This document shows positions 5,883 to 62,114 of a stretch of 64,000 nucleotides of DNA, one piece after another. How positions within the stretch are numbered: position 1 is the stretch's first letter; every line of letters starts with the position of its first letter. Source of the DNA: Zygnema cylindricum (lineage: Eukaryota > Streptophyta > Zygnematophyceae > Zygnematales > Zygnemataceae); assembly GCA_037447655.1 (NCBI GenBank), contig JBBHKE010002689.1, positions 155,642 through 219,641 of the forward strand, given 5' to 3'. A program made the translations under genes and the position numbers. The notes beneath the pieces were generated by a model. The model searched no databases and was not told where the DNA came from. It saw nothing but the letters and a program-made list of their open reading frames with translations.

Positions 5883-5968
5883 TGACGGACCAGAGATTTG
5901 ATCCCGGTACCCGCGGTTCGTCAAATCGACCGGTAGCGGTCAGCTTTATCCTAATAGACTAGGACCAA
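5883..5968 (-). other. tRNA-like module, antisense in A 5' LTR
   Basis: On the minus strand: GGATAAAGCTGACCG (A-box-like) then CCGGGATCAAATCTCTGG (T-arm/B-box-like) then TCCGTCA. The B-box is slightly degenerate. Copy in the 3' LTR at 11273-11358. Confidence 0.6.
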
Positions 5969-6230
5969 TGCTAAGTGCTATGGTATGTGATAGATATATA
6001 TTTAGTTCGAAAGGATAAAGTTCATTTAACTAAAACTGTTTACGGCGTACATATATACAGTTTTATAAAGTACGTCGTACGACGCTAATTCAAAACGGAT
6101 ACCACGCATTTTATTTCTACATCGGAACAAATATCGCGCAAGTATTTATTCCGGCCAAGATTACGTTTCGCATATAATCCAACGGCGCACATCATCGCCG
6201 AAATCTCGGAGTGGTCACTTTGGCATTTAG

Positions 6231-6510
6231 TGACGTGGCATCACCTGGCGCCACGTGGGGAGACATCATTCGGTCGCGGGAATTCCGAGGAACGTACGGA
6301 TGAGTGGAAAGTATACACGCGTCCACTTATGGCCTTGTCGTACAGAGGCCGTACAGAAAGTACATCGGCAGCAATACTTTCTAGTACTATACAGTTTTGT
6401 GATTGGTTCGTACAGGCAGTAGATAGGAGCTGTGAGAGGGAATTAGGAAAAACTAGGACTTAGGAAAATTTAGGTAGATAGTCCTCTCTCTCAGAGAGTT
6501 TGTATAAATT
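6231..6510 (+). promoter_or_regulatory. A 5' LTR promoter
   Basis: Contains TGACGTGGCA and CCACGTGG (6251-6258, a G-box-type ACGT palindrome), several GTAC cores between 6292 and 6420, a CTCTCTCTCAGAGAG inverted repeat, and a TATA-like TATAAATT at 6503-6510. The transcription start is expected 25-35 bp downstream. Equivalent blocks occur in the sister LTRs. Binding of bZIP/bHLH factors (ACGT) and SBP factors (GTAC) is inference from the motifs. Confidence 0.6.
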
Positions 6511-6573
6511 GGCATCTTTGCCACCCTATAACTTATCGCCTGGTTGGCCGTTTTCAGTGATTCTTTTTTCTAC

Positions 6574-6589
6574 GGACTCAGGGGAGTCC
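6574..6589 (+). other. small hairpin downstream of the TATA box
   Basis: GGACTCAGGGGAGTCC forms a 6-bp stem with a 4-nt loop. It is preceded by the conserved CAGTGATTCTTTTTTCTAC. It recurs in A, B, C, M, N and A2 LTRs with paired substitutions in C. Confidence 0.6.
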
Positions 6590-6703
6590 ATGCTACACAG
6601 GGGTGCAGTCAAATTGTCAGTTTGCCTTCTTGGGCAGTAGTGGTTGTGGCTTAAAGTGGGTTAGTTAAATACTATCTAGAGGCTTCCTGTATTCTGTGGT
6701 CCA

Positions 6704-9700
6704 ATGGAGGACACAGAATTGCAGGTTATGGGCCCACCCTCTAGGGTGCCCACCTTCAATGGATGTGGGTTCATCTATTGGGAAGCCATGATGATGGGAG
6801 CTTTGTGTGAAAAACGATACTGGGGTATCGTCAGTGGACAAGTGAAACGTCCACCTTCAGGAACTCCACCAGGATTTGGGGGAGTAAGGTTTCCTGCAAC
6901 AACGGCTGCCTCGGCGGAGGAGGCAGATGATGGGGACAGCAGTGTGTCCGAAAAGGGGAAAGGGAAGGAGACACCCCTTACTCCTATTGCCACAGTATCG
7001 GGAGCGGCAATCGTGAAGACCGTGGAGAACGATACTCAAATGTGGGAGGATGTAAACATGGCTGCCAAAAACTTCATTCTGAGGCACCTCACTCAAGGTT
7101 TGGCCACTCCTCATCTTCACATTTACAAGGCCGAGGAGTTGTGGGTGAGTTTGGTGGAAATTTATAGAGCTGGAACTATTCAGGAGCTCCAGTTGGCTGA
7201 GCAAAAGCTATTGAGTTACACTTACAAAGGAGGAAAGATGTTAGATTACTGTAATGATCTTTCTTGTTTGCATACAGAAATGGAAAGTGCCGGGTGGATA
7301 GGTACAATGAAAATGAAAGTTAACACCCTTATCATGAAATTACCAGATGAGTTCGAAAACTTAGTGTACCGAGTACAGGGAATGCCTGATAGTTCATGGA
7401 AATGGAACACAGTAGTCGGGATGATACTTGTGCAGGAAAACACAATGGAGATTAGGAGAGGAGGAAAGAGCATTCAAGCTCTAGCAGTAGGAGGGGACCG
7501 ATGGGGAAAGGACCCGAAGAAACCTTATAGAGGGGAAAGAGATCTTTCAGGGGGACAAAGGCCCCCAAAGGGTCTTTGTCATTATTGCAAAAAGCCGGGG
7601 CACTTTATTGCAGATTATGTCAAGCTATCAGAGCTGAGGCTCCAAGAGAACCGTGGAGGGGGTTCTTCCGGAGGGAAGAAAAAGGCACTTGTGGTTACAA
7701 AGTTGTCAGGAGAAACCGAGGATGAGTCCTCTGAGGAGGATGGGGAGCTTCTTCTTGACGAGAGTTTGGAGGAGAAGGAGATTCCTCGGAGGCAGAAGTG
7801 TGCCCTTGGAGCCATCCGGGAAGCTCCACAGGAAGGATGGATCATCGACTCAGGTGCATCCATGCATATGTGTCGTGATAAAGAACTCTTCACTAAGTTA
7901 AGAAAGATTCCTACTGTAGAGATAGAGTATGGGGATGGGAGAGTGGTAACTACAGATCTAGTGGGATCAGTAGATCTGAAAGTCTTAGTGGAGGGTAAGA
8001 CTTCTATACTTACATTCTCAGATGTACTTTACATTCCACAGCTGAGTAAAAACCTTGTCTCTACGTCTGTGTTAGATGACAAAGAGTTTGATACCTTCAA
8101 AAGAAAGGGAGTCTTTACAGCTAAGTATGGGGATGAAGTTTACTTCACAGCAGATAAGGGTAGCCAAGGAATGTTTAGGCTTAACTTGAGTAATAAAAAG
8201 AAGAATGCTTTCTATGTTGGTGTTCCTGAGGTGATGATTTGGCATAAGCGGTTGGGGCATGTACATTTTGATAGGTTAAGGGAAATGAAAAAACTTGGGG
8301 TAGTAGATGGCATTGAGTTTGGGGATAATGAAATGATGGATGATTGTAGTGGTTGTGCTCAAGGTAAGGCTCACAGACTTCCCTTTCCCAATGCCGCCAC
8401 ATGTAGAGGTGAGAAAGTATTAGATTTAACCCACACAGATATTTGGGGGCCTGCAAAAGTACCTTCGGTTGCAGGAAAGAGGTTTATGATGACAATAACT
8501 GATGACTGGTCTAGATACTCTAGAGTCTACTTTCTGAAAACAAAGTCTGAAGCATCAACTTACTTCAAAGAATATAAAGCTTGGAGTGAGAAGTTGCATG
8601 AAACCCCCATTAAAAGGATAAGGAGTGATAATGGGGGGGAATATACCTCTAACGAGTTTGAGGAATATTTGAGAGATGAGGGAGTGCAGCACCAGAAAAC
8701 TGTACCATATAACCCAGAACAAAATGGGGTAGCTGAGAGGTTGAATAGAACACTAGGAGATAGTGCATGTAGTATGTTGGCAGACAAGAAAATAGGAAAG
8801 AGATTTTGGGCAGAGGCAATGAACTGTGCCAACTATATTAAAAATAGAGTCCTTACCTCAGCTGTAAAGGGAGTGACACCTTATGAGAGATGGGTTGGAA
8901 GGAAACCAGATATCTCACACCTTAAAGTATTTGGTAGCCAAGTTTACAGTCTTGACACGGATAGGAAAAACTGGAAACTAGATGCTAAGGGAAAACCTGG
9001 ATACTTTGTGGGATATGATGAGGATGTTAAGGGATATAGAGTCTATGACTTAGCAAAGAAAGATATCATTCTGGTCAAACACTTAGTTGTCATGGATGAA
9101 GGGAAGTCATTTGACCCCTTCAAATATACAAAGAAGATAAGGATCAGATTTGAGTCCGAAAGTGAGGAGAACTCAGTCGTTCCCGAAAAAGACATGAGTG
9201 AAACTGTGATTACAGATTCAGGGGAGATCGAAGATACAGGAGACTCACCGGAAACCTCACATACTCCTATGGACTTCGAGGAGATGGAAGAAGCGGGACA
9301 AGATACGGTTTTTATGGACAGGGGAGCCGATGAGACAGTGAGAAGAAATCCAAGACTTCCGTCCATTCCAGCTTCGGAGTTTGAGGGAGGAAGGAGGAGC
9401 AGCAAAAGGATACAGGAAAAACAAGCTGCCCATAAGGTAACTAAGCTATCTCACCCAGATGAGCCTCAGTCTTACTTAGAGGCAGTGAATAGTCCAGAGA
9501 AAGAAAGATGGATTAGAGCCATAAATGATGAGATGGCTTCTATCATGGAAGCAAATACTTGGGAACTAGCGGATTGCCCTCCAGACAGAAAACCTATTGG
9601 ATGTAAATGGGTATTTAAACTAAAACTGAACCCAGATAATACAATTGAGAGGTATAAGGCTCGATTGGTAGCAAAGGGGTTCACCCAAAAAGAGGGGATT

Positions 9701-11053
9701 GACTATGAGGAGACCTTTGCTCCTGTTGTTCGGTTCCCATCGGTAAGGATTCTCCTCAGTCTGGCCGCAGCGGAAGACATGGAAATTCACCAGATGGATA
9801 TTAAGACTGCTTTTCTTAATGGTGAGTTAGAGGAAGAAATTTTTATGAGGCAACCCGAGGGGTTTGTGGAAGAAGGAGAAGAGAGCAAAGTGTGCAGGCT
9901 CATAAAGTCCTTATATGGACTGAAACAGGCTCCCCGACGGTGGAATAAGAAACTAGATGAGTTTCTCACCGATCTGGGATACATCCGGATTAGCTCTGAC
10001 CATTCTATCTATATGTTTGAAGATGAGAATGGTGTCATTTTTATTGCAATTTATGTGGATGATCTGCTTGTGTTAAGTAAGTCTTTAGATAATATCAATA
10101 GGCTAAAGAAAGATCTTAGGGGCAGATTTGATATGAAGGATTTAGGGGAGGCAAAATATATTTTGGGGATCCAAATGGAGAGAGATAGAGGGAAAAAGAT
10201 TATGAGACTTACTCAGAAAGAAGCAATAGGTAATATGCTTGAGAAATTCCAGATGGAAAATGCTAACAGTTGTACCACTCCCATGGACTTGAAAAAAGTA
10301 AGTGATGGGAGTGTAGAAGGAGGAGTGATGATCTTAGACGATCAGATGAGTCTAGAGGAGAGAGAGTTCATGAAGTCTATTCCTTATAGACAGGTCGTAG
10401 GAAGCTTAATCTATTTTATGAACTGTACCAGGCCGGACATAGCGGCAGAAGTCGGAGTACTCAGTAGGAGTCTTAATGATCATAGGAAGAGAGATTGGGA
10501 GGCAGCCAAGAGAGTCATGAGATATCTGGTGGGAACTAGAGAGTTATTGTTGCATTTGGGAGGGGAGCATACTGATATCACCACTTGGAGTGACGCCAGT
10601 TATGGGGATGCACCTATGAGAAGATGCACTTCTGGATATGTTTTGTATGTGGGGGAAGGTGCTTGCTGTTGGAGCAGTAAGCAAGAAAAGGTGGTTGCTC
10701 AGTCTACTATGGAGGCTGAGTATATGGCGTCGTGTTCTGCTGTAAAAGAACTAATGTGGGTGAAATCATTGTTACAAGAACTGGGATTTATGAAGGAGGG
10801 AGTGCATGAAATCTTTTGCGATAACCAAGCTGCAATTGCAATTGCAGCCAATCCAAAACACCATTTCAAAGCAAAACATATGGACATAAGATTAAGTTTC
10901 GTAAGAGAAAAAGTTGAAAATAAAATTCTAAATCTTGTGTATAGACCTGATGAAGAAATGGTGGCTGACATGATGACCAAACCTGAGCCCTCTCCTAAAC
11001 TAAAATATTGTCAGGAAAAATGCGGGTTGAAAGAAAAATTAGAATTAGACTAG
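6704..11053 (+). CDS. copia gag-pol polyprotein (element A)
   Basis: One open frame of 1449 codons covering all functions of a Ty1/copia element. Gag comes first (residues about 1-290), then a zinc knuckle CHYCKKPGHFIADY near 291-305 whose last Cys is replaced by Tyr (A2 keeps CHFCKKLGHFIADC). Next are protease WIIDSGAS near 377, GAG-pre-integrase WHKRLGHVHF, integrase CSGCAQGK zinc residues and core D, D, E in HTDIWGP, RSDNGGEY and PEQNGVAER (about 575-680), RT with YVDDLLVL near 1116, and RNase H with TTWSDASYGD and FCDNQAAIAIAANP. The start ATG lies 20 nt before the LTR end, so the first seven residues (MEDTELQ) are LTR-encoded and the primer-binding site is translated as VMGPP. No frameshift separates gag from pol. 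Possibly active apart from the knuckle change. Confidence 0.95.
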   Translation: MEDTELQVMGPPSRVPTFNGCGFIYWEAMMMGALCEKRYWGIVSGQVKRPPSGTPPGFGGVRFPATTAASAEEADDGDSSVSEKGKGKETPLTPIATVSGAAIVKTVENDTQMWEDVNMAAKNFILRHLTQGLATPHLHIYKAEELWVSLVEIYRAGTIQELQLAEQKLLSYTYKGGKMLDYCNDLSCLHTEMESAGWIGTMKMKVNTLIMKLPDEFENLVYRVQGMPDSSWKWNTVVGMILVQENTMEIRRGGKSIQALAVGGDRWGKDPKKPYRGERDLSGGQRPPKGLCHYCKKPGHFIADYVKLSELRLQENRGGGSSGGKKKALVVTKLSGETEDESSEEDGELLLDESLEEKEIPRRQKCALGAIREAPQEGWIIDSGASMHMCRDKELFTKLRKIPTVEIEYGDGRVVTTDLVGSVDLKVLVEGKTSILTFSDVLYIPQLSKNLVSTSVLDDKEFDTFKRKGVFTAKYGDEVYFTADKGSQGMFRLNLSNKKKNAFYVGVPEVMIWHKRLGHVHFDRLREMKKLGVVDGIEFGDNEMMDDCSGCAQGKAHRLPFPNAATCRGEKVLDLTHTDIWGPAKVPSVAGKRFMMTITDDWSRYSRVYFLKTKSEASTYFKEYKAWSEKLHETPIKRIRSDNGGEYTSNEFEEYLRDEGVQHQKTVPYNPEQNGVAERLNRTLGDSACSMLADKKIGKRFWAEAMNCANYIKNRVLTSAVKGVTPYERWVGRKPDISHLKVFGSQVYSLDTDRKNWKLDAKGKPGYFVGYDEDVKGYRVYDLAKKDIILVKHLVVMDEGKSFDPFKYTKKIRIRFESESEENSVVPEKDMSETVITDSGEIEDTGDSPETSHTPMDFEEMEEAGQDTVFMDRGADETVRRNPRLPSIPASEFEGGRRSSKRIQEKQAAHKVTKLSHPDEPQSYLEAVNSPEKERWIRAINDEMASIMEANTWELADCPPDRKPIGCKWVFKLKLNPDNTIERYKARLVAKGFTQKEGIDYEETFAPVVRFPSVRILLSLAAAEDMEIHQMDIKTAFLNGELEEEIFMRQPEGFVEEGEESKVCRLIKSLYGLKQAPRRWNKKLDEFLTDLGYIRISSDHSIYMFEDENGVIFIAIYVDDLLVLSKSLDNINRLKKDLRGRFDMKDLGEAKYILGIQMERDRGKKIMRLTQKEAIGNMLEKFQMENANSCTTPMDLKKVSDGSVEGGVMILDDQMSLEEREFMKSIPYRQVVGSLIYFMNCTRPDIAAEVGVLSRSLNDHRKRDWEAAKRVMRYLVGTRELLLHLGGEHTDITTWSDASYGDAPMRRCTSGYVLYVGEGACCWSSKQEKVVAQSTMEAEYMASCSAVKELMWVKSLLQELGFMKEGVHEIFCDNQAAIAIAANPKHHFKAKHMDIRLSFVREKVENKILNLVYRPDEEMVADMMTKPEPSPKLKYCQEKCGLKEKLELD
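6724..6738 (+). other. A primer-binding site inside gag (half-tRNA iMet)
   Basis: GGTTATGGGCCCACC starts immediately after the LTR terminal CA. It is the exact complement of the anticodon stem-loop segment GGTGGGCCCATAACC of plant initiator tRNA-Met as I recall it. The usual plant site TGGTATCAGAG is not present here. Drosophila copia and yeast Ty5 are known to prime from a half tRNA at this same arm. Confidence 0.85.
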
Positions 11054-11066
11054 AAAATAAGGGGAG
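11054..11066 (+). other. A polypurine tract
   Basis: GAAAATAAGGGGAG-type tract directly upstream of the 3' LTR start, the expected plus-strand primer site. Confidence 0.85.
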
Positions 11067-12113
11067 TGTTGAAATTTATAGATTTATAGAGTATTTTCTA
11101 GGTTTAAATATGTTTTTATAAAAAGAAAAAGAAAAGGACGGACAGCCTGCCTCCACCTCCGCTCTCTAGCCCCCATACTTGCTGTAGTCACTGAAGGAAA
11201 GAGAGAGAGGTTGATCCATGGCTGCCTTAGTTCAACAGACAGCTATTTTTAGTAGGTTACTAAAAATATACTTGACGGACCAAATATTTGATCCCGGTAC
11301 CTGCGGTTCCTCAAATCGACCAGTAGCGGTCAGCTTTATCCTAATAGACTAGGACCAATGCTAAGTGCTATGGTATGTGATAGATATATATTTAGTTCGA
11401 AAGGATAAAGTTCATTTAACTAAAACTGTTTACGGCGTACATATATACAGTTTTATAAAGTACGTCGTACGACGCTAATTCAAAACGGATACCACGCATT
11501 TTATTTCTACATCGGAACAAATATCGCGCAAGTATTTATTCTGGCCAAGATTACGTTTCGCATATAATCCAACGGCGCACATCATCGCCGAAATCCCGGA
11601 GTGGTCACTTTGGCATTTAGTGACGTGGCATCACGTGGCGCCACGTGGGGAGACATCATTCGGTCGCGGGAATTTCGAGGAACGTACGGATGAGTGGAAA
11701 GTATACACGCGTCCACTTATGGCCTTGTCGTACAGAGGCCGTACAGAAAGTACATCGGCAGTAGTACTTTCTAGTACTATACAGTTTTGTGATTGGTTCG
11801 TACAGATAGTAGATAGGAGCTGTGAGAGGGAATTAGGAAAAACTAGGACTTAGGAAAATTTAGGTAGATAGTCCTCTCTCTCAGAGAGTTTGTATAAATT
11901 GGCATCTTTGCCACCCTATAACTTATCGCCTGGTTGGCCGTTTTCAGTGATTCTTTTTTCTACGGACTCAAGGGAGTCCAGGCTACATAGGGGTGCTGTC
12001 AAATTGTTAGTTTGCCTTCTTGGGCAGCAGTGGTTGTGGCTTAAAGTGGGTTAGTTAAATACTATCTAGAGGCTTCCTGTATTCTGTGGTCCAATGGAGG
12101 ACACAGAATTGCA
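11067..12113 (+). repeat. A 3' LTR
   Basis: 1047 bp, same length as the 5' LTR. Contains the tRNA-like module (minus strand, 11273-11358), ACGT motifs at 11622-11648, and hairpin GGACTCAAGGGAGTCC at 11964-11979, where the one change lies in the loop. Confidence 0.95.
11273..11358 (-). other. tRNA-like module, antisense in A 3' LTR
   Basis: Counterpart of 5883-5968 with a few substitutions, one of them in the T-arm-like segment (GGATCAAATATTTGG). Confidence 0.55.
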
Positions 12114-12118
12114 TTAAA

Positions 12119-12951
12119 TAGAGATAGTGAGGATCAAAGGCACGCCATGGCTGCCGCCATATTTAGAAAGTGGCAGATTTTGAAGTATATGATATTTTAC
12201 CAAAATGTTGTCTAATTGAAGTTTTAAACCTGCGACCTCTAGATTCTAAATAGCCGGGAGCCTTAACCATTAAGGCGTTACGAATAGTTACACGTGACAA
12301 TTTCAAAGATATATAAACATTACCGCAACGGCTAGTTAACACCAAACTAACGGAGAGGAACAATTCATGCACGTACGCAAATCTGAATCGTGTGAAATAT
12401 ATTTTGATCGTACTGTCAACAATGTAGCCGCCACTCGAAGTGAGCTTTTGGCGGCATTCGTAAATAACGTCACGCGGTGCCACGTGGCTCCGCATTATTT
12501 GATACCGGAAAAGATGGGAGTAGGAACCATGGCTCCCAATTTTAGAGGTGTTACCTTGTAGACTATGTCGTACAATAGACGTACAATAAGTACATCGCCC
12601 ATTGTACCTTCTTGTACTATATAGTGTTTCTATTGTACTAAGGTTTAGTAGTAGGTAGTCGTGAGTAGGCAGACCATGACTAAGTGATATTTAGGTACCT
12701 CTCTCTAAGAGAGTTTTTAAATATAAAGGTCAGTTTTGACCAGCCATAACCTATTGCTCAGGGGAGCAAATTAAGAGATTCTTTTTGCTAAAGACTCAAA
12801 GAAGTCTTGTCTTCATAAATGTGAAGGTGTTCATATTTTTTGACTTTGGGGGTGACACTTATTCTTGCTGAAACACAAAGGGGTCAGGGTTATCTTAGAG
12901 GCTTCGTGTGAGTTGCCTACTCTGAGGACCAATGGAGGTCTTTGAGTTGCA
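12119..12951 (+). repeat. copia C 3' LTR, second piece
   Basis: Continuation of 5445-5676 after element A; together about 1065 bp. Contains CCATGGCTGCC, an antisense tRNA-like module (12222-12292), ACGT and GTAC motifs, a hairpin AAGACTCAAAGAAGTCTT (12791-12808), and the terminal ATGGAGGTCTTTGAGTTGCA, which again places a gag-type start codon (MEVFEL) at the LTR end. Confidence 0.85.
12222..12292 (-). other. tRNA-like module, antisense in C LTR
   Basis: Minus strand reads AATGGTTAAGGCTCCCGG, then about 20 nt later CGCAGGTTTAAAACTTC. The D-arm-like part is good and the B-box is degenerate. Confidence 0.5.
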
Positions 12952-13343
12952 CTCCGTACAAAATATAAATTTGGGAGAGGAAACCGACTTAGTTATCATA
13001 TCTGCTACCATCTTTCCATCCGGTCTATATTCCAAACTAATTATTTTAGTATCAACTTTCTCTCTAACAAAGCTCAAACAATATCCATATGCTTTGCTTT
13101 AAAGTGATACTTAAGGTTTGCTGCAATTACAATCGTAGCTTGACTATCACAAAATATCCATTGTTTTTTTCCACGACCACTAGAGCAGGTGGAGCAGCAG
13201 CAGTAGTAGTAGAAGTAGACATAATTCACTCGGATAACCTTACCAAGAATCCTACCCAACAATTGTTTTCTACAGCTCATCAAATTCGACACAAATGTCC
13301 AAACTGCTTCAAACTACACCATAGTATAGAATTTTACAACGTC
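12952..13343 (-). pseudogene. copia O, RNase H fragment
   Basis: Minus-strand remnants FCDSQATIVIAANLKYHFKAKHMDI and REKVDTKIISLEYRPDGKMVADMITK identify the C-terminus of a copia RNase H (12957-13180). The rest, up to about 13343, includes a CAGCAGCAGTAGTAG-like triplet run and is not recognisable. The fragment lies against the end of the C LTR, so copia C was probably inserted in it. Confidence 0.7.
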
Positions 13344-17811: not shown

Positions 17812-17821
17812 NNNNNNNNNN
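17812..17821. other. 10-N assembly gap
   Basis: Ten Ns. The LTR to its left is truncated exactly here and does not continue on the right, so the join probably hides collapsed or missing repeat sequence. Confidence 1.
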
Positions 17822-22400: not shown

Positions 22401-23459
22401 GCTCAGACCATTCTATCTATATGTTTGAAGATGAGAATGCTGTCATTTTTATTGCAATTTATGTGGATGATCTGCTTTTGTTGAGTAAGTGTTTGGAGAA
22501 GATCAATAGGCTAAAGAAAGATTTTAGGGGCAGATTTGATATGAAGGATTTAGGTGAGGCAAAATATATTTCGAGGATCCAAATGGAGAGAGATAGGGGG
22601 AAAAGGATTATCAGACTTACTCAGAAAGAAGCAATAGGTAATATGCTTGAAAAAATCCTGATGGAAAAGGCTAACAGTTGTACCACTCCCATGGACTTGA
22701 AAAAAGTAAGTGATGGGAGTGTAGAAGGAAGAATGATGATTTTAGATGATCAGATGAGTCCAGAGGAGAGAGAGTTTATGACGTCTATTCCTTATAGACA
22801 GGTCGTAAGAAGTTTGATCTACTTATGAACTGTACCAGACCGAACATAGCGGCAGCAGTAGGAGTCTTAATGATCCTAGGAAGAGAGATTGGGAGGCAGC
22901 CAAGAGAGTGATGAGATATCTTGTAGGAACCAGAGAGTTATGGTTACATTTAGGAGGTGAGCACACTGATATTACTACTTGGAGTGATGCCTGTTATGGG
23001 GATGCACCTATGAGAATATGCACTTTCGGGTATGTGTTGTATGTGGGGGAAGGTGATTGTTGTTGGAGCAGTAAGCAACATAAGGTGGTTGCTCAGTCTA
23101 CTATGAAGGCTGAGTATATGGCCTCTTGTTCGGCTGTGAATGAGTTGATGTGGGTCAAATTCTTATTGCAACAATTGGGGTATATGAAGGAGGGAGAACA
23201 TGAAGTTTTTTGTGATAATCAAGATGCCATTGCCATTGCAGCCAATCCATAACACCATTTCAAGGCTAAGCATATGGACATAACATTGAGCTTCGTGAGG
23301 GAAAAAGTTGAAAACAAAAATGTAAATCTTGTGTATAAATTCGATAAAGAAATGGTGGCTGACATGATGACCAAACCTGTGCCCTCTCCAAAGTTTAAAT
23401 ATTGTCGGGAAAAATGTGGATTAAAAGAAAAGTCAAATTAGACTAGAAAATAAAGGGAG

Positions 23460-30290: not shown

Positions 30291-30416
30291 TCTGCGCCGG
30301 GCAGTGCGCAGTATCCAATAATGATGCTCTAGGACCATTTGTTGTCCCGGCCTCACGCTTCACTCCTCCAGACTGACGCTGCCTCTCACTCGCCGCACGC
30401 ACGCTCGCCGACACTC

Positions 30417-50295: not shown

Positions 50296-50371
50296 TGTTG
50301 GAATTCAAGTATTTTATAGGTCTAGAGATTGCAAAATAAAAAGCAAAATAGTAGATATTGACAGCCTGCCT

Positions 50372-50432
50372 CTAACTCCTCACTCAAGTCCCCACACTTG
50401 TCGCAGTCACTGAAGACTAGAGGAGGAGTTAG
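50372..50432 (+). other. U3 hairpin block with conserved loop (B2)
   Basis: Perfect 10-bp stem, 41-nt loop. The stem sequence differs from that of A while the loop core and the following CCATGGCTGCC are conserved. Confidence 0.6.
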
Positions 50433-50502
50433 CCATGGCTGCCTGTGCTGTCTAGAGAGAGACAGGCAGTTGTTTTATAAGGTTTTCTCTAAAAGGGAGT
50501 TT

Positions 50503-50580
50503 TGACAGAGCCAGGATTTGGTCCTGGTACCTGCCATTCGTCACACCCGCAACAGCCGGTAACCTTATCCAGATAGTCTA
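50503..50580 (-). other. tRNA-like module, antisense in B2 5' LTR
   Basis: Minus strand: GGATAAGGTTACCGGCTG, then CCAGGACCAAATCCTGG (T-arm-like, perfect stem), then CTCTGTCA. Confidence 0.6.
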
Positions 50581-51470
50581 AATTATATGATAGAGTATAC
50601 GGGGTATGTTATTAATATAAACAGCTACAATAAGACTAATTCATTTAACTAGAACTATATGCATACTGCATAGAAACAGTTGTGTAAAGTACGACGTACG
50701 GTACGGATACGAAATAAATACCGCGCAGTTTGTTTGACGCCGGAAAGAATACCGCGCAAGTATTTATGACGTCCACGATTGAAATCCAAATTTGATCGGA
50801 CAGCCGCGAAGGATGCCGAGATCGTGGAGTACGATTTTGGCGGTTTGCCATCACCGCCACATTGAGTGACACGTGGCAACACTACATTAGATTGCGGCAA
50901 CTCCGGGGATTACGAAAACGAATCCGGATATGACACGTGTCAACATTTTGGCCATGTCGTACTATGGCCGTACATAAAGTACACCGGCACCTGTACTTTT
51001 CTGTTACGACACAGTGTTTTAATTGGTGCCGTACTTCAGTAGATAGAGTTTTAGAGGGAGATAGGACTTCGAAAATTTTTGCAGATAGGACCCTCTCTCT
51101 AAGAGAGCACCTTGTATAAATGGCTAACTTTGGGCAACCATAACTATCAATTTACTTGACCATTTTCAGTGATTTTTTTTGCTGCAGACTTAGGGGAGTC
51201 CAGGCTACACAGGGGTGTAGCCGGTCAGAGTTTTTGTCTGCCAGGGTGGCTACATTTCTAAGGGAAAGTCAAAGTGGGTGAATGTGTCTTAATCTCATAT
51301 TCTAACTTTGCATTCTGTGGTAGAACTGAGCACACAGAAAGTGTTATTTCACAGGGGTGAATCTATAATGGGGTTCTGACTGTCAAGGGGTCAGTCACTT
51401 GGGTTTATATCAACTTGGAGTCGGCACTATCTAGATTAGCTTCTTTTGGATCTGCATACTCTGAGGGCCA

Positions 51471-52802
51471 ATGGAGGTCTCAGAGTTTCAGGTTATGGGC
51501 CCACCATCTAGGATGCCTATGTTCGATGGAAAAGACTTCACTTATTGGGAGTTTACAATGGCGGGATTGCTTTTCGAGAAGCACTTATGGGGAATTGTTT
51601 CAGGACAAGTGAGATGTCCGCCACCTGGCTTTGGAGGAGCTTACTATGGAGATTCATCTGAGGCTGCCCAGAATATCAACCGGAGTTCAGATGCAACGGA
51701 AGGTGAAGGGAAAAATCTTTCCGTGGATGGGGAAATAGGGGAGAAGGAAAAAGGGACACCTATGGTGAGGGGAGCTAGGCTCTCAGCTATGGTACCACAT
51801 GTAGGGATTAAAACTGAAGAAAATGACAAAAAAATATGGGAATACAAAAACACTATAGCAAAACATCTCATACTTAGATAAGTGTCTAAGTCGATAGCTA
51901 TCAGTATTTTAAGTCTAACCAAGTCTTCACAGATATGGGAAGCACTAATTCTGATTTATAAGAGTAAGACTATTCAGAGGCAGCAATTAGTAAAACAGGA
52001 AATAGAGGCCTACGTTTATAAAGGCGGTAGCATGATAGAGTTTTGCAATGATATTGCTGCGTTATATGTTGAGCTTACTAGTGCGAAATATGTAGAATTT
52101 GAGGAGAGTAAGATTAATACACTACTTATGAAACTCCCTGATGAGTACGAAAACATCATTTGTCGTATGCAAGCAATGGATGGCTCCTCATGGACTTGGA
52201 GCTTTACCATGGGGATAATTCTTGTGAGGGAAAGCACTTTGGAGCTTCGTAGGGGAAGGGACAGGGTCAATGCATTTTCAGCTGGTGGTGATTGGCGGAA
52301 GCGTGATGAGAGGAATGGTGGTGACGAGCGGAAGCGTGATGAGAGGAACGGTGGTGACGAGCGGAAGCGCGATGAGAGAAAGAAAGACAAAGGTAAACCT
52401 TATCGGCACTTTGGTGGAAAGAGAGGGAGAGGAAAAGAAAGGGGAGCTTTGAAAAAGGGGGTTTGCTTCTTTTGTAGGGAACCGGGTCATTATATGGAGG
52501 AATGCCCTTGTTTGGAAAAACTTAGAAGTTGGAATGTGGATGAGGAGGAAGAAGGGGAAGAGGAGAAAGAGGATGAAGATTTTTTTGAGCTTCTCCGGAT
52601 TAGTAGTACGAAGAAGAGAGAAAAACACACAGTAATTGCACGAAGGCAACAGTGTGCTTTTGAAGGTATAAGGGAAGTAAAGAGAGAGGAGGTACTTGAG
52701 GATGTCGAGGAGTGTAGAGTGTATGACTTAGAAATGAGAAAGTCAGTTCTAGGATCCATAAGTGAAAACGGGAAAGATAAAATTAATCAGGATAATTTTT
52801 AG
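51471..52802 (+). pseudogene. B2 gag
   Basis: MEVSEFQVMGPPSRMPMFDGKDFTYWEF starts in the LTR; one nonsense codon (TAA at 51879-51881, Tyr in B1) interrupts an otherwise open gag of about 440 codons. Domains: copia gag N-terminal region, MIEFCNDIAALYVEL and INTLLMKLPDEYENI, an RDERNGGDERK repeat tract (about 52300-52390), zinc knuckle CFFCREPGHYMEEC (52467-52508), and an acidic tail. With a single stop this is nearly intact gag. Confidence 0.85.
51491..51505 (+). other. B2 primer-binding site (half-tRNA iMet)
   Basis: GGTTATGGGCCCACC immediately after the LTR, identical to element A, and in the gag frame as VMGPP. Confidence 0.85.
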
Positions 52803-52867
52803 ATAATAGGGAAACAGATAAGTGGTCGGAAAGGGAGACTTCAACGGATTCCGAGGAAAGGGGAGAA

Positions 52868-53422
52868 GTGAAACTCGAAGAGGTTTTAAAGGATAGGGGA
52901 GAAGAGAAATATTTGATTAAAGGTTTAGGGGAGAATAAATATTTATTGGGAATTAAATTAGAAAGTAATAGTGGAAAGAATTCCATGGGAGAGAGTGAGG
53001 GAAGTTCAAAAAATGGGGTAATAATCATGGATAAAAATATGAGTACGAAAGATGTAGATCTTATGAGGAACTTAGTGGGGACTAGTGTTTTTTGGGAATA
53101 TTTGGGGGTGGATGGATTTGACATCACTACTTGGTGTGATGTCACTTGTGAAGATGTGCCTGTAAAAGGGTTAGCACTTGGATGTATGTTGCAGATTGGA
53201 GATGGGGCTGGCTGTTTGGATCGCAAGAGGGAAATCGGTTTGTGTGTGGATAAAAGAGTGATGAAGTGTAAAAAATCTTTGCTTGGATTTATGAAAAGTG
53301 GGATGCTAAATAAAATGTGTAATGCAATTATCATTTCAGTTCATTTAATGCACTGTGTTAAATACTTAAGTTTTATGAAAGGAAAAGGAAAAAGGAAAAA
53401 GAAAAGGAAAAAGGGGAGGTGA
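52868..53422 (+). CDS. B2 second ORF, RT/RNase H patchwork
   Basis: Open frame of 184 codons homologous to B1 2033-2623: NKYLLGIKLESNSGK, VIIMDKNMSTKDVDLMRNLVGT, DITTWCDVTCEDVPVKG and GFMKSGMLNKM. A long basic tail (KGKGKRKKKRKKGR) comes from a purine tract near the polypurine site. Lacks RT and RNase H catalytic residues. Whether it is translated is unknown. Confidence 0.5.
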   Translation: MKLEEVLKDRGEEKYLIKGLGENKYLLGIKLESNSGKNSMGESEGSSKNGVIIMDKNMSTKDVDLMRNLVGTSVFWEYLGVDGFDITTWCDVTCEDVPVKGLALGCMLQIGDGAGCLDRKREIGLCVDKRVMKCKKSLLGFMKSGMLNKMCNAIIISVHLMHCVKYLSFMKGKGKRKKKRKKGR

Positions 53423-53479
53423 TGTTTGTTTACTTGTTTGTGGAAGTTGAAAGAAAAATAGACTAGAAAATAAGGGGAG

Positions 53480-54674
53480 TGTTGGAATTCAAGTATTTTC
53501 TAGGTCTAGAGATTGCCAAAAAAAAAAGCAAAATAGTAGATATTGACAGCCTGCCTCTAACTCCTCACTCAAGTCCCCACACTTGTCGCAGTCACTGAAG
53601 ACTAGAGGAGGAGTTAGCCATGGCTGCCTGTGCTATCTAGAGAGAGACAGGTAGTTGTTTTATAAGGTTTTCTCTAAAAGGGAGTTTTGACGGAGCCAGG
53701 ATTTGGTCCTGGTACTTGCCATTCGTCACACCTGCAACAACCGGTAACCTTATCCAGATAGTCTAAATTATATGATAGAGTATACGGGGTATGTTATTAA
53801 TATAAACAGCTACAATAAGACTAATTCATTTAACTAGAACTATATGCATACTGCATAGAAACAGTTGTGTAAAGTACGACGTACGGTACGGATACGAAAT
53901 AAATACCGCGCAGTTTGTTTGACGCCGGAAAGAATACCGCGCAAGTATTTATGACGTCCACGATTGAAATCCAAATTTGATCGGACAGCCGCGAAGGATG
54001 CCGAGATCGTGGAGTATGATTTTGGCGGTTTGCCATCACCGCCACATTGAGTGACACGTGGCAACACTACATTAGATTGCGGCAACTCCGGGGATTACGA
54101 AAACGAATCCGGATATGACACGTGTCAACATTTTGGCCATGTCGTACTATGGCCGTACATAAAGTACACCGGCACCTGTACTTTTCTGTTACGACACAGT
54201 GTTTTAATTGGTGCTGTACTTCAGTAGATAGAGTTTTAGAGGGAGATAGGACTTCGATAAATTTTGGATAGGCACTGCCTCTCCCAGAGAGCACCCTGTA
54301 TAAATGGCAAACTTTGGGCAGCCATAACTATCAATTTACTTGACCATTTTCAGTGATTCTTTTTGCTGCGGACTCAGGGGAGTCCAAGCTACACAGGGGT
54401 GTAGTCGGTCAGAGTTTTTGTCTGCCAGGGTGGCTGCATTTCTAAGGGAAAGTCAAAGTGGGTGAATGTGTCCAAATCTCATATTCTAACTTTGCATTCT
54501 GTGGTAGAACTGAGCACACAGAAAGTGTTATTTCACAGGGGTGAATCTATATTGGGGTTCTGACTGTCAAGGGGTCAGTCACTTGGGTTTATATCAACTT
54601 GGAGTCGGCACTATCTAGATTAGCTTCTTTTGGATTTGCATACTCTGAGGGCCAACGGAGGTCTCACAGTTTCA
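53480..54674 (+). repeat. B2 3' LTR
   Basis: Preceded by polypurine AAAATAAGGGGAG. Contains tRNA-like module 53687-53765 (minus strand) and hairpin GGACTCAGGGGAGTCC at 54370-54385. Confidence 0.92.
53687..53765 (-). other. tRNA-like module, antisense in B2 3' LTR
   Basis: Counterpart of 50503-50580 with a few substitutions; T-arm-like CCAGGACCAAATCCTGG intact. Confidence 0.6.
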
Positions 54675-57600
54675 AGAAGTCTCCGCTGAGGCATTCGTCG
54701 TGGCTTAGTTGAAGGATAGTATGTCGTAACTCTTGATTTGTTGAAATATACAATCGGGTTGTCTTACTCGGTTTGTACCGCTGCATGCCGTTGGCAGTTT
54801 GAACCAATATTTTTCCTTTGACGAGTTTTGCAATTGTGTCGTCGTCTAAGTATGCCGCCTTAATTCGGTCTAGCCACCTTTCGTCCACTTGCACCGTACT
54901 CGTGACAGTGTTGACTTTTTGGTCGTAAAGTTTGTCGGCTGCGATACTATCTGCTTTCACCGATTCATCCCTGAATTACTGTAATAGTTGCGATAGATCT
55001 GACGCGGTCAGCGCATCAACACCTGATCTCCTTGACAACGCATCGACATGATTTTTTTTACCGGGTTTGTATTCGATGGTTAACTTTCGTCCGAAAATTT
55101 GTAAGAATGTCATCCATCTAGCCTGTTTCTTGGATAACTTCGGTAGTGTTTGCAGATACTGTAACGCATTGTGGTTAGTAATCACCGTGATCGGCTCCCC
55201 TTGATCGTAACACTTCCAAACTTCCAACGCATTAATGATGGCTATCGTTTTCTTCTCGTGAGTTGCCCAATTAAGTTCCGCCACCTTAAGTTTACGACTT
55301 ACATAGGCGATGGGTTGTAGACCTCTTCCGTGATCTTGCATAAGGATTGCTCCAATAGCCGTATCACTCACGTCAGTGATTATTGTCCAAGGTAACTCCG
55401 GATTGGGAACCGCTAACACAGGGGCTGTAACCAACCGCTCTTTTAGCATGTTAAAGGCAGCCTCTTCTACTGTCTTCCACTCATAAGCCACGTCATTTTT
55501 GAGCAAATCCGTGAGTGGTGTGGCGATTTTTGCGAATCCCTCCACGAACCGTCGGTAGTAGGAGCATAACCCAAGGAAGCTCCTCAACTCCGTGATATTC
55601 TGCGGTTGTGGCCACTCCTTGGCTGCCTTAGTTTTGCTGGGATCTACCGCGATTCCATTCCGACTGACCACATGGCCCAAAAACGCCATCTCTTCCTTCA
55701 AAAACTCACATTTACTCATTTTGGCGTACAACTTATTCTCCCTTAGGATTAGTATCACAGTTTTCAGGTGATTGACATGGTCCTCTAGTGTTTCACTATA
55801 CACTAGGATGTCGTCCAAGAACACTATTACGAATGCGTCCAGATAATGCCGAAGATAGAATTCATCAAATACATAAAGGTAGCGGGGGCATTAGTCAATC
55901 CAAACGACATGACTAGGAATTAAAAATGACAAGACGCGACTGTATCGTGTCCTCAACGCAGTTTTCTCCACATCCTCCTCCGCAACCCGAAACTGGTGGT
56001 ATCCACTACGCAGGTCTATCTTAGAGAAATACCTAACACCCTTGAGTCTGTCTAATAATTCATTGATCTTGGGAAGGGGGGTATGCGTTTTTGATGGTTA
56101 ATTTATTTAGCGCTCGGTAGTCCACACACATACGAAAACCTTCATCTTTCTTGGACACAAAAAGAACGGGGACTCCATAAGGTGACTTGCTCGGTTCAAT
56201 GGCTCCGGCCTCGACCAACTCCGAAAGTTGTTTTTTAAGTTCATCTAACTTGGTATAACTCATCTTATACATCCTGTTGGTCGGGGGCACTGCCCCCGAG
56301 ACAAGTTCTATTTTGTGGTGTACGTCGCGTTTCGGAGGTAAACCTTCCAGGAGTTTCGGGGGAAAAACATCAGGATATTCTTCGAGAAGTTTTGTCACGA
56401 CTTCCTAAGCCTTAATGGAAGTCTTTCTTGCATCGTCACCTCTTTGGGAGTCGAAGTCGGGATCCTTTGTTGTCCACTCCTTCGGGACCTCCTCCATGGG
56501 TTGTACGACCGCCATTCCAATTGTTTCCCCTTTCTTGAGTGCCCTGTTAAGCTGTAAAGCCGAAAGCAAGCGTCCCTCTTCCAGACCTTTACCAGCCACT
56601 CCGATGTTTACCTCATACTCTTTTTTGTCTTTCCTGACCCTTATATACCTTCTTCCTCCAATCAATGATTGAATTCCACTTTTGAAGCCACGGCTTCCCC
56701 GAGATTACCTCATGATCCCCGAGCGGTAATACACGGAGTGTCTCATACCAATGAGAGTTCACCAAACTATTCGCATTCGAGGTGTGCAATGAGTGATCCC
56801 TATAGAGGTGCCATCGGCTAATTGGACCGATTGCTAATCTGGAACAACTATGAGAGGCAACTTCAACTTCTTCACCCTCTTCTCGTTGATGAAATTTCCC
56901 AACACTCCAGAGTGAACCATGAAGCTAGTTACGCTACCCCCAATCTTTCCTTGAAAAACGAAGGGGTCTCCACCTTTTCCAACTAATCTCATGACATTGA
57001 GTTTGCCTTTTCTGGAGTCTTTTCTCCTTGGGCATTCTCTAGCCATATGGTCAGGGGAACCACACTGGAAGCATAATCCATTTTGCCTCCTCTTCTGGAG
57101 CTCCTCGGGGGACAAGTCATTGGTCTTCTTCCTACTGGTCTTCTTCTTTCTTTTAATTCGTTGACCGAAGGTCCTCTCCTTATTGCTCCCGACTCATGGG
57201 GTCGACCATCATCCTTCAAACCTTCGTTCTACTCGATCCAAAATGGTATGACCTAGGGAGGTGAAGTCAATTGAATTGTGCGTTCCATAAATTGGACCGA
57301 GAAAGGCTACGAGACGTTGTTTCCGGTGAGCCATGCCACATCTTGTCGGATTGAAGCCTTGAGCTAAACATATCGTCAGCGGCTTCGTCCTCAGATCGTT
57401 GGAATCGAACCTTGCCTCTAAGAATCGTTGCGTGTATCTCAATACGGAGTGCCTTGTCTCAGCGCAAAAATTCCTATCTTGCGTTGCGTGTTCACGAGTT
57501 GCCGGAGTCACGAAGAGAACGGACAAACAAGGTCCAATTAGCGGGTACCTCGCCGTCTTTCACCATTGCCCTCCACCCCGCTCCTGCTTCCCCCTTCAGT

Positions 57601-57933: not shown

Positions 57934-58385
57934 TGTAAAATGAGTAACCTAGACACCACGTCTAAGATGTATAGCAGAATATTCCCAAAGATTCACTCGT
58001 AGCAACAGTAAAGCTACACAGTGTATACAACAAAAAACTGGGGCTTTATCAATCAGGAAGAGAATACAAGATTGCCTGCTCGCTGTCTGAAGTCTACTCC
58101 CAAAACGAGTGTCTATTTACTAAATCTACTCAATATTTAAACTAGCTACTTGCCGGTTAATGCGGTACTACAGCTGGTCAACTATGTACACTTGGACACA
58201 CTTTATTAATTGCATCCTTTCCACACTAGGTTCTAGAACTATACAATGCACTCTACATTTTGCTACGTTACTATGCTGCTAAGTTGCGTTGCTATGCTGC
58301 TATAATGCGCTAGTCTGACATCGCAGCTGCGCTGCTTTGACATCGCAACTACCGCAACTTTTCCACTCTGCTCCCATTCTGTACA
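57934..58385 (-). repeat. G 5' LTR
   Basis: 452 bp, TGTAAAATGAG...TTCTGTACA in plus orientation. Matches 45606-46049. Confidence 0.9.
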
Positions 58386-59099
58386 TACCTCTTCTATTTT
58401 TAACTAAACTCCTTTTGAAGCGTGGCATGGGACAAAACTGGATGTCTCTCATTTTTGCATTTTTTGGTGCGAATCATACTTCAAAATCCTTCCCCCTTCC
58501 AATAGTAAATTAGGTCCTTGAGCTATGCGAGGATTTTTTTTGGGATATTCCCCGAATTCGAAAGCATATCGTATTTGGTGCCCCTCTTCTAACCGCATTG
58601 TCACCACTCGTGATGTTTTTTTTCATGAGATTCCCCTTATATGTACCGTTGTACCCGAATTCCTCATCACTCGTTTACCTAGTTTATTCCCTCCTTACGA
58701 AACTCTCCCCTCTAATTCTATTACCACCTTGCTAATGCCCCCTTTAACCCCATCGAAAATACGCCCCCTTTAAACCTTCACATTTTCCCTATTTCTACAG
58801 TTTTTCCTCTTTCCACAGATTTTGTCTCTTCATCCAATTCCGGCGAAGAATTTTCCCTAGTACGCTCCACGATTTCCGGCGCTTCACCTCTCACTATACG
58901 ACTTGTTGCTGATGACGCGATGAACCTGGCCCTGACAAATATTCATATCGTTGTACGACCTGTTGTTGATGACGCGACTGTCTTGGACGGGACAAATTTT
59001 CCTGTCTCTGGTGACGCTTCGGTTCTTCTATCGACAAATGCCACGTCCTTTAGAGGTTACGTCGCCGGCATGTGCTTATCCTAATTCAGTCATAACTAC
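58386..59099 (+). pseudogene. K integrase C-terminal part
   Basis: Resumes after G with TPFEAWHGTKLDVSHFCIFWC, then MRGFFLGYSPNSKAYRIWCPSSNRIVTTRDVFFHE, the conserved copia integrase tail. Stops in the first 130 bp. The remaining 300 bp encode a serine/proline-rich linker to RT and are cut by D3 at 59099. Confidence 0.85.
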
Positions 59100-60126
59100 T
59101 GTTGTCCATAGCCTATTTCGGCCATGGATTACTCTCAGAAGCACCACAGACTACCCCTCAAACAGCTGTGTTTCAGACAGCACAGATTACTCCACAATAA
59201 ATAAAATACCCTCAAACTGCACCAATAGGCAGTATACTATAGAAAATGTAAGCTACCAAAGTTAAAGCCAAATTCATCGAGGAATCTAGAAGATATAAGG
59301 TCGAGAGTTTCATAAAAACAGTTGACAGCTTCACAAACTAACCACTTAGACCTCACACAAAATATTACAGAGATAACAGAATAGAATAAAACTATATTAG
59401 AGAGAACACTGAACAGAATGAAACTTCACACTCAAATATATTCTATAACATAGAATAACTCCACAAAGTTTCAAATGAAAGCACCAAACAGAGTGATCAC
59501 ACCAACAGGTCAAAGATACAGAAAACAGTTTGCCATTGCTTTGATAATACTTGACTGCGATACATAAAATAATCTAAGTCCTGCAAGTTATACTCAAAGA
59601 GTTCACTACCGAATGTATGGAGGTATACCAGCCATATTGTTTCTACTCTAATAAACTAATTAGCCCAAAAGGACAAACCTCTGTTGTACATAATATTTAC
59701 ACCGACATCTCCGCAATCTTCGTATGTCAGAAACCAAGCTTCCGCTAAGCAACTACTAAGATACCGAAAAATCATCATTACTCGGAATCTATTCTATTCA
59801 TATTACCCGCTGCTGCGTCAAGTGCGCTGTCACTACGGATCATGTAAAGATAACCGCAGCTGCGTTGAGTTAACTGCGTCGCAGCTCCGCCGTACCGGCG
59901 ACGCCTATTTTAACATTTCGTTTATTACACATCGGATCGCTTCGCGATCTGCCGTCCATTTGTCAATGCTTGTTCACTCCACTTAATGAGTCATTTACGT
60001 CACTTTAAATATATCTGTACGTTTGCTCCCCCAATCTGTGAAACAATTCAAACCTCTATATTAAATCCATTAAGTAATTATGTTCGAACTGTCTCGTACG
60101 CACGAAACTGACTTTTCAAAACAACA
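59100..60126 (-). repeat. solo LTR D3
   Basis: 1027 bp, TGTTGTCC...AAACAACA; flanks ACTAC and ATTAC (4 of 5). GGATCGCTTCGCGATCT hairpin near 59934. On the element strand its end carries ATGGCCGAAATAGG, a start codon (MAEIGYGQQ) equivalent to that in D2. Confidence 0.82.
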
Positions 60127-61122
60127 ATTACGCCGTTAACCCCACTTGCCGAAAAACTTGTCGTACGTCAAAGTACGAGCCTTTCACAACCGAGGTAGAA
60201 AATTCTCAAAAATCTTGTTCACGCCAACCTGGCGACGTCAAAGATCTACCCACATTAAATGTCGCATTCAAGCGCCTTGATGCTGGCATGTGGAGGCTTG
60301 CTGCTATGCAAGAGTAAGACGCATTGATGACAAACAATGCTTGGACGCTTTGTACTCTTTCACCAAACCATCGTGCGATTAGTTTCAAGTGGGTCTTCAA
60401 GATTAAACGATTGGCAGATCGTACTATCGACCGTTACAAGACACGACTCATTGCAAAAGGCTACTTACAGACAGAGGGCATTGACTACAATGAGACTTTT
60501 GCACCTGTCGCAAAACTTGACTCCATCCGTACAATTTTGTCCATCGCAGCTTTTCATGATTGGGAATTACAACAACTCGACGTCAAAACTACTTTTCTTC
60601 ATGGTAGTCTTGCAAAAGATATATTTATGGAACAACCACCTGGTTACACTATTTTTGAACCGAAACCCTTGTTTGTCATTTACGTAAGTCTATTTATGGT
60701 CTTAAACAAACACCTAGAGTTTGGCATCAAACCGTTGTCGCAATATTAATCAAAGAAGGATTTAGGGAAATCAGTGCAGATCATGGGATTTATATTAGAG
60801 GTACAGGTGACCAATTAATCATCATTATTATTTACGTAGATGATTGAATTCTCACAGGTTGTAGTAAGTCCTCTATTCATCAAGTCAAAGGCATCCTCTC
60901 ATCCTATTGGCTTATGACCGATTTAGGCGATCTTGACTATTGCTTAGGCATCACTATTTTACGTCAAAGGTCTGTACGCATTTCGCAAATGAGTCAAGAG
61001 CACTACATTTTTGATCTTCTTGAGCATTTTGACTTGTGCGATTGCAATTCAGTGCCTACTCCTTTTGATCCCAATACCACTCTCACCAAAGTGTCCTCGA
61101 TGGGAATGCCCAAGGAGATAAA
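60127..61122 (+). pseudogene. K reverse transcriptase
   Basis: AISFKWVFKIKRLADRTIDRYKTRLIAKGY, IDYNETFAPVAKLDSIRTILSIAA, QQLDVKTTFLHGSLAKDIFMEQPPGY, then after a frameshift near 60685 SLYGLKQTPRVWH, IIIIYVDD followed at once by a stop, TDLGDLDYCLGI and NSVPTPFDPN. Ends in the A3 insertion at KEIN. Confidence 0.9.
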
Positions 61123-62114
61123 TGCAATTCTGTGTCTTCCATTAGACTACACAATTCAAGAAGCCTCTAGATAGTTGTTAACTAACCCACATCCAATGGC
61201 AACCACTACTAAAGCAAACAAGTTGACAATCTGACTACACTCGTGTGCAGCTTGGACTCCTCTGAGTCCGTAGGAAAAAGAATCTCTAAAAACGCCCAAC
61301 CAGGCAATAAGTTATGGGGTGGCAAAGATGCCAATTTTATACAAACTCTCAAAGAGAGAGAGGACTATCTACCAGATTTTTCTAAGTCCTAGTTCCCTCT
61401 CACAACCCCTCTTTACTGACTGTACGAACGAATCATATCACTGTACAGTACAAGAAAGTACTACCACCAATATACTTTCTATACGGCCTCTGTACGACAA
61501 GGCCATTAAGCGGACGCGTGTCCACTTTTCACTCGTCCGTATGTTCATCGTAATTCCCACGACCAAATGTTATTTCTCCACGTGGCGCCAGGTCATGCCA
61601 TGTCACAAAACGCCAAAGTGACAATTCCGGGATCTCGGTGATGATGTCTGCCGTTGGATAAAAGTAGGCATTCAATCTTGACCGTCGAAACAAATGTGTG
61701 ATTCATTTGTTTCGTGCGGTATTATGTTCGCAGTGTATATAGCTAGTTCTATGTCTTTTCATTTGTATTTCTGTTAATCGGTTTGAAGATCGTAACATAG
61801 TTTAAATATTAATCATACCCTATATACTTTAACGAACTTCTACGACAGACCGGTTAGAGTTGACGGCTACGCCTCGTACTGCCGATCGGGTGTTCGAGTC
61901 CTGCCGAACTCAACCTTTTGTTAAGAGTGACATAAATCACTCTTCAGTTCTGCTTATTAGACTGAGGCAACCATGGATTTCTTTCTCTCTCTCTCTCTCC
62001 TCCAGTGACTACAACAAGTATAGGGGATAGAGAGGAAAGGTGAAAGCAGACTGCCTGCTCTTTTATTTTATTTTAGACCTAGAAAATATCCTATAAATCT
62101 AGCGATTTTCAACA
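61123..62114 (-). repeat. A3 3' LTR (N)
   Basis: 992 bp, TG...CA. GGACTCCTCTGAGTCC near 61255, GTAC/ACGT promoter region, tRNA-like module and U3 block with purine/pyrimidine arms around GACTACAACAAGTATAGGGG (reverse of the conserved loop). Confidence 0.92.
61845..61914 (+). other. tRNA-like module, antisense in A3 3' LTR
   Basis: GACCGGTTAGAGTTGACGGC, then GCCGATCGGGTGTTCGAGTCC. The B-box keeps GTTCGAGTCC; the hairpin is weaker than in J. Confidence 0.6.

Follow-up and report, generated by a model that had tools for sequence, protein, structure and literature searches.

The stretch of Zygnema cylindricum DNA analysed here (contig JBBHKE010002689.1 of assembly GCA_037447655.1, positions 155,642 to 219,641), hereafter the window, is 64,000 nucleotides long, is part of a 353-Mb assembly, and contains several Ty1/copia elements. 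The long terminal repeats (LTRs) of these elements, designated A, A2, A3, B1, B2, C, J, and M, carry in their U3 region a stretch resembling the D-loop/A-box region of a tRNA, followed by one resembling the B box and T-arm; as the initial annotation of the window had described, both are present at every coordinate listed below and lie on the strand opposite to that of the LTR. Judged from its sequence, this module is a tRNA-derived unit of the type transcribed by RNA polymerase III (Pol III), and not a tRNA gene. The modules are given with their scores against a tRNA profile (described below) and with the terminator-like run of four thymines (T4) beside them:

1737–1810, plus strand: module in LTR B1a, no tRNA-profile hit of its own; T4 at 1814–1817, plus strand
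4887–4960, plus strand: module in LTR B1b, 5.4 bits (Rfam tRNA model 12.2 bits, under the cutoff of 29); T4 at 4964–4967, plus strand
5883–5968, minus strand: module in the 5' LTR of A, 4.1 bits; T4 (part of a T5 run) at 5873–5876, minus strand
11273–11358, minus strand: module in the 3' LTR of A, 3.6 bits; T4 at 11263–11266, minus strand
12222–12292, minus strand: module in LTR C, 17.5 bits; T4 at 12202–12205, minus strand
19167–19239, plus strand: module in LTR J, 14.3 bits; T4 (part of a T5 run) at 19240–19243, plus strand
23666–23739, minus strand: module in the 3' LTR of A2, 13.5 bits; T4 at 23661–23664, minus strand
43745–43829, plus strand: module in LTR M, 21.4 bits; TTTC next to it, no T4
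50503–50580, minus strand: module in LTR B2a, no tRNA-profile hit of its own; T4 at 50491–50494, minus strand
53687–53765, minus strand: module in LTR B2b, no tRNA-profile hit of its own; T4 at 53676–53679, minus strand
61845–61914, plus strand: module in the LTR of A3, 10.1 bits; T4 at 61916–61919, plus strand

Read on the antisense strand, the modules have the order of a type-2 Pol III gene (A box, B box, T4), of which the A box is the weakest part. The B box lies 38–48 bases beyond the D-loop/A-box region, and a run of at least four thymines follows 14–19 bases past the B box in 10 of the 11 window LTRs, the exception being M; by chance, a 12-base stretch so placed would contain one with a probability of 0.03–0.09 per LTR. 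A TATA motif stands 45–51 bases before the D-loop GG in nine of the 11 LTRs, a count without a chance comparison, and at 29–31 bases in J and A3. In flowering plants, 67–73% of tRNA genes have T-runs and 22–32% have TATA motifs, according to PMC11700998. The columns of the T-stem are paired in 85.5% of cells, a value equalled by 8 of 500 shuffles, the covariation score of the stem is equalled by 4 of 500, and pairing is kept with changes on both sides in three of the five pairs. The unit of LTR A spans positions ~197–292 of that LTR and points away from TATA motifs at 319–388, which would presumably serve RNA polymerase II (Pol II); the motif at 319 might be used in either direction.

Likeness to tRNA was scored with a profile hidden Markov model built from 22 plant tRNAs; both strands of the 64 kb were scanned, and 2,200 dinucleotide-shuffled LTRs (200 per LTR) formed the null set. 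The six top hits in the window, on either strand, are the modules of M, C, J, A2, A3, and B1b, all antisense, and the first five of these exceed the best shuffled LTR, which reached 9.1 bits; true tRNAs not used in building the profile scored 17–47 bits. Chance likeness is therefore rejected for these five modules. The scores of the two A modules were matched by 2 and 4 of 200 shuffles, respectively, and, taken singly, the A, B1a, and B2 modules are not significant with this profile, although the T-arm of B2a aligned to initiator tRNA-Met with a score of 40, against 31 for the best of 200 shuffles. The contrast with shuffled LTRs, on which the initial annotation had made its proposal depend, thus holds for five modules by the tRNA profile, but counts of A- and B-box consensus positions barely discriminate: the module is the top antisense site in seven of 10 LTRs (not in A3p, B2a, or B2b), with scores slightly above those of shuffles, and B-box and A-box patterns across the whole window show no excess over chance. 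An ordinary tRNA gene, which the same annotation had discounted because an acceptor stem is absent, is rejected as well: ARAGORN at default settings called no gene in the window, Rfam gave no match there at the curated cutoff (tRNA and 5S included), and no 5' acceptor strand matching the 3' end was seen by eye in the modules read. With thresholds lowered to 85%, ARAGORN made four calls in the window, the A2 module among them. No relatives were found in viral contigs.

The arrangement extends to copies elsewhere in the genome, of which 30 of A, 30 of C, 20 of J, 20 of B, and 20 M-like ones were drawn from the best 40 matches of each search; this sample is non-random, the window's own LTR is counted in the A and C sets, and members of one family are not independent. 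The module site is present in all 100 A, C, J, and B copies, and the best tRNA-profile hit is antisense in 96 of them, with no hit in the remaining four and none on the other strand; the 20 M-like copies all have an antisense hit. The orientation that the initial annotation had found in the window is the only one among the profile hits of the sampled copies (116 of 120 copies with a hit). Median scores are 9.0 bits for A, 19.8 for C, 15.8 for J, 7.3 for B, and 12.3 for the M-like copies, and C copies reach 30.1 bits. Seven to nine of the nine B-box consensus positions are kept in 91 of the 96 copies of these four families in which the box was countable, four gapped C copies being excluded, and the box is perfect in nine C and 10 J copies. 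The T-run is found in 114 of 120 copies (30 of 30 A, 26 of 30 C, 20 of 20 J, and 19 of 20 B from alignments; 19 of 20 M-like by eye).

The LTRs that carry the modules, and the parts of element A, are placed as follows:

824–2014 and 3976–5164: LTRs B1a and B1b, element on the minus strand
5442–5676 plus 12114–12957: LTR C, plus strand, interrupted by element A
5677–12113: whole element A, plus strand, with its 5' LTR at 5677–6723 and its 3' LTR at 11067–12113
5866–6170, no strand assigned: U3 tract of LTR A exchanged between families, including the module (~300 bases, borders approximate)
6680–11053, plus strand: open reading frame (ORF) of element A, stop to stop, 1457 codons, with copia-type gag, integrase (rve), and RVT_2
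6724–6738, plus strand: primer binding site (PBS) of element A, able to base-pair with the anticodon arm of a plant-type initiator tRNA-Met
18448–19448: LTR J, minus strand
23456–24453: 3' LTR of A2, element on the plus strand
43002–44030: LTR M, minus strand
50296–51490 and 53480–54674: LTRs B2a and B2b, B2 element on the plus strand
61123–62118: LTR A3, element on the minus strand

Element A is a Copia element by its RVT_2, copia-type gag, and integrase domains, its TG...CA LTR ends, its PBS, and its polypurine tract, and 5-base target duplications stand on both sides of it inside LTR C. Its LTR has at least 40 full-length matches with 98–100% identity among the genome matches listed, and family A is the youngest of the families sampled, coding, and recently amplified. 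A PBS next to the 5' LTR in A, B1, and B2 (6724–6738, 3961–3975, and 51491–51505) would pair with the anticodon arm of a plant-type initiator tRNA-Met, as in half-tRNA priming. The B elements (824–5164 and 50296–54674) consist of long LTRs around ~2 kb, with a gag-type frame in B2; no Pfam hit came from the B1 frames searched and no RVT_2 from the B frames searched, and these elements are probably non-autonomous.

The LTR families are strongly diverged, as had been noted at the outset, but they are nevertheless homologous, with 50–84% identity outside the module: A, A2, A3, J, M, B1, and B2 can be aligned end to end, with 150 further columns at the 3' end of B. LTR C, which gave no alignment in the first comparison within the window, was picked up by a profile built from ten window LTRs and belongs to the same lineage, though diverged (d 0.72–0.82 to the others), with its module at the homologous site. 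The equal position and orientation of the modules, which the initial annotation took as a sign of selection or of descent from an ancestral insertion, follow mainly from this homology and are not independent observations; descent is what the homologous site bears out, and selection need not be invoked for placement. The similar place in U3 likewise applies to most LTRs (~196–276 from the LTR start), but in window LTR C the module lies at ~321–387, because the U3 of C holds an extra stretch. That stretch is missing in four of eight genome copies compared, where the module lies ~200–260 from the LTR start. Both halves of the window LTR are matched by each of the 29 C copies searched in the genome, the left half over only 53–59 bases in five of the eight copies compared, four of which are those without the inner stretch. 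A region with a CCATGG motif occurs twice in the U3 of window LTR C (5442–5676 and 12114–12200), ~120 bases apart, with element A between the two. Targeted insertion near the module was considered, as element A lies ~90 bases past the T-run of LTR C, but this is a single case.

Inheritance within U3 has not been uniform. Outside LTR positions ~190–490, A and M are ~0.7–0.9 identical to J, A2, and A3, whereas inside them the identity falls to 0.4–0.6, against 0.5–0.7 between A/M and B. The module itself follows the tract: A and A2 share 0.52 of it and 0.76 of their flanks, whereas A and B1b share 0.71 and 0.63, respectively. These differences indicate that a U3 tract including the module was replaced in one group, and a tRNA-like antisense module is present in both versions of the exchanged tract.

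Other features of the window include gene pieces with introns at ~30400–32500 that resemble a phosphorylase-type protein (best matches 62% to an unnamed record and 30% to a green-alga record with PF01048, for a query that contained a hand-made join) and frames at 24402–24959 and 40013–41769 that by eye resemble broken hAT-type transposases, the sole frame searched (40016–40717) giving no Pfam hit. A Gypsy-like RVT_1/RNase H fragment lies at 54976–55890, and a run of N at ~17812–17821, beside an LTR fragment left of A2, is probably an assembly gap.

The initial annotation knew of no comparable arrangement. tRNA-like sequences in LTRs are in fact known, in small non-coding elements: Kojima 2024 (PMC10886601) describes Helenus terminal-repeat retrotransposons in miniature (TRIMs; TRIMp3) of 311–1263 bp, non-coding and with a tRNA-like sequence and Pol III promoter in the LTR, which occur in fungi, where they are tied to Copia, in animals, and in one plant. 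The same paper proposes SINE2, a class of short interspersed nuclear elements (SINEs), as the source of the Helenus modules, states that "not a few" Repbase LTRs resemble part of a tRNA, and argues that the autonomous partners of Helenus have to rely on Pol II and would hardly have long stretches of LTR in common with it; the words "antisense" and "opposite" do not occur in its main text. The Copia modules share with Helenus, as described there, A and B boxes of tRNA-like type inside an LTR (single A and B copies not being significant on their own), the mobility of an LTR retrotransposon, and probably the lack of a functional tRNA. The Copia carriers differ from Helenus in their LTRs of ~1–1.2 kb, in that one family is coding, and in the antisense direction of the module; element A (5677–12113), with its 1457-codon RVT_2 and rve ORF, places family A outside Helenus. 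In tRNA-derived SINEs (SINE2), the A and B boxes are kept and the tRNA fold is lost, as in the Copia modules, which differ in having a T-run at the distance found in tRNA genes. Cassandra, a TRIM that also carries a Pol III gene-derived module in its LTR (as cited in PMC10886601), contains 5S rRNA and not tRNA, and no 5S Rfam match at cutoff occurs in the window. A literature search yielded no paper recognisable by its title or the start of its abstract as dealing with a tRNA-like unit placed antisense in autonomous LTR elements, which is weak evidence of absence, as most subscription papers were outside its scope. What is new is the combination of a coding Copia element, long LTRs, and the antisense direction.

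A Helenus-type TRIM is present in the same genome (loci L101–L112, and L054:614-1131 on the minus strand). Its two LTRs measure ~229 nt and contain, in the sense direction, a sequence like tRNA-Glu(CTC) and then a T-run (CTCACTTTT); between them lie 57 internal bases, with the PBS TGGTATCGGAGC in most copies read and a purine-rich tract. In its short LTR, tRNA-like sequence, PBS, polypurine tract, and 5-bp target duplication (seen by eye in L106 and L107 only), it agrees with Helenus. The LTR has at least 63 matches among the 40 candidates scored, many paired ~286 nt apart, and ARAGORN at default settings accepts the tRNA-like sequence, with 21 calls in 12 loci. As in the Copia modules, a tRNA-like sequence in the LTR is followed by a T-run, but the TRIM differs in its sense orientation, its short LTR, and a tRNA-like sequence that passes the ARAGORN default. 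The primer sites of the two also differ in type, being of the anticodon-arm type in Copia and of the 3'-end type in the TRIM. When J was aligned to the tRNA-like sequence of the TRIM, two copies scored 42, against 41 and 40 for the best single tRNA, and window J scored 34 against 37, values too close to favour an origin of the modules from the TRIM.

The reading that we favour, with slightly more weight for it than against it, is that the module is an antisense tRNA-derived remnant in U3 that has been inherited and exchanged, has kept its Pol III grammar, and acts by binding factors. A tRNA gene or tRNA-derived element would have come to lie, on the antisense strand, within U3 when the Copia LTR was still ancestral, and would have been handed down with the LTRs, partly via recombination that swapped U3 tracts between families. 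The type-2 grammar (D-loop/A-box region, B box, and a T4–T5 run 14–19 nt past the B box) has been retained, while the tRNA form has been lost, with no acceptor stem, no consistent anticodon arm, and a resemblance that varies by family. TFIIIC and Pol III may bind the module and produce a short antisense RNA of ~70–100 nt running away from the presumed Pol II promoter of the LTR, and the benefit to the element would come mainly from factor binding, by keeping chromatin open or forming a boundary next to the promoter, and not from the shape of the RNA. A promoter function of the module appears somewhat more probable than its absence, and selection on the module is plausible but unproven. The stronger version, in which a working Pol III unit lies back to back with the presumed Pol II promoter of a coding Copia element as an exchangeable cassette, kept since the assembly of TFIIIC and TBP keeps the LTR open or insulated, so that the element would carry its own tDNA-type boundary, is tentative and on balance doubtful.

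Several observations weigh against a retained function. Besides the lack of an Rfam match noted above, the module has weakened in the youngest family, A, with a B box of seven of nine positions in 28 of 30 copies and no score above 9.0 bits, and B copies reach 8.9 bits at most. The 21.4 bits of window M are atypical of its own family, given the median over its 20 copies, and its high score was dropped as a sign of selection. TATA motifs were found at the expected spot in only 13 of 29 C and four of 21 J sequences, located with a crude anchor. Module conservation between clades is 0.52, against an LTR average of 0.57 (C not included); the T-arm ranks with the most variable parts in a set of 30 C copies (nucleotide diversity, pi, 0.23, against 0.115 for the LTR part studied), and in J copies the B box, at pi 0.116, lies slightly above the mean. 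Strong purifying selection on the whole module is thus unsupported. Among the same 30 C copies (window 12117–12500), a TATA-like stretch upstream of the module is one of the least variable (pi 0.046). On the side of selection, the T-run of J copies has a pi of 0.036 against 0.090 overall, although 14% of equal-length stretches are as low. The T-stem evidence is also qualified: its rows were registered by hand, a shift of the partner by a single column leaves covariation almost as high, and 89 of 500 shuffles equal the count of pairs in which both sides have changed. Folding energies are unremarkable in most modules, falling below z = −2 only in J and M, and a conserved RNA fold is not supported by them; covariation backs the T-stem alone, and weakly.

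These same features, namely conservation not above the LTR average, variable T-arms in C, the weakened B box of the youngest family, and acceptor pairing not seen in the modules read, would be expected if an ancient tRNA gene or tRNA-SINE had fallen antisense into the ancestral U3 and been carried along without function, its likeness being what decay has left. We consider such a relict unlikely, though it deserves to be taken seriously, as T4 is retained in the great majority of sampled copies across five families and perfect B boxes persist in C and J despite the divergence of C. In a simulation of neutral decay from the 22 tRNAs, which supposes a single capture, lineages that evolve independently, and no indels, a fraction of 0.044 still reached 17.5 bits at 0.4 substitutions per site, and at d 0.35 per lineage 6% kept 19.4 bits and 15% kept 14.3; since such scores are rarely kept, joint retention is unlikely under neutrality. 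Repeated capture, in which template switching would have brought packaged primer tRNAs, or tRNAs lying near the reverse transcriptase, into U3 on several occasions, is improbable. The best-matching tRNA does vary by family (tRNA-Cys for C, initiator Met for B, and Asn, Lys, or Ile for J), and the drop in A–A2 identity at the module would fit repeated capture, but the best-tRNA scores lie only a few points apart in a set of 22 tRNAs, the module occupies one strand and a homologous site in all families, and the low A–J identity spans ~300 bases, far past the module, which points to U3 recombination. An origin from initiator tRNA-Met, which fits the 3' half of B2a and the anticodon arm of which fits the primer site, was rejected because C and J match other tRNAs better.

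The module might instead yield antisense RNA that encounters the U3 portion at the 3' end of the genomic RNA, regulating it or feeding small-RNA silencing. The 3' LTR copy lies within the genomic RNA, and the orientation and T-run would fit, but the sequence is not specially conserved and its folding is unremarkable in most modules, and we regard this as very improbable. Least credible is chance similarity in A/T-rich LTRs: whole-window box counts are at chance level and consensus counts hardly exceed those of shuffles, but the profile scores against 2,200 shuffles, the single-strand hits in nearly all sampled copies (non-independent as they are), and the T-run at the expected distance all speak against it.

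In Z. cylindricum, long Copia families, one of them coding and recently amplified, thus carry a Pol III-type unit in the opposite direction beside sense-oriented Helenus-type TRIMs in one genome. If the unit works, the control of the LTR promoter would be linked to Pol III factors, and a natural allele series for the effect of such a unit on silencing and transcription would be at hand in families A, B, C, J, and M.

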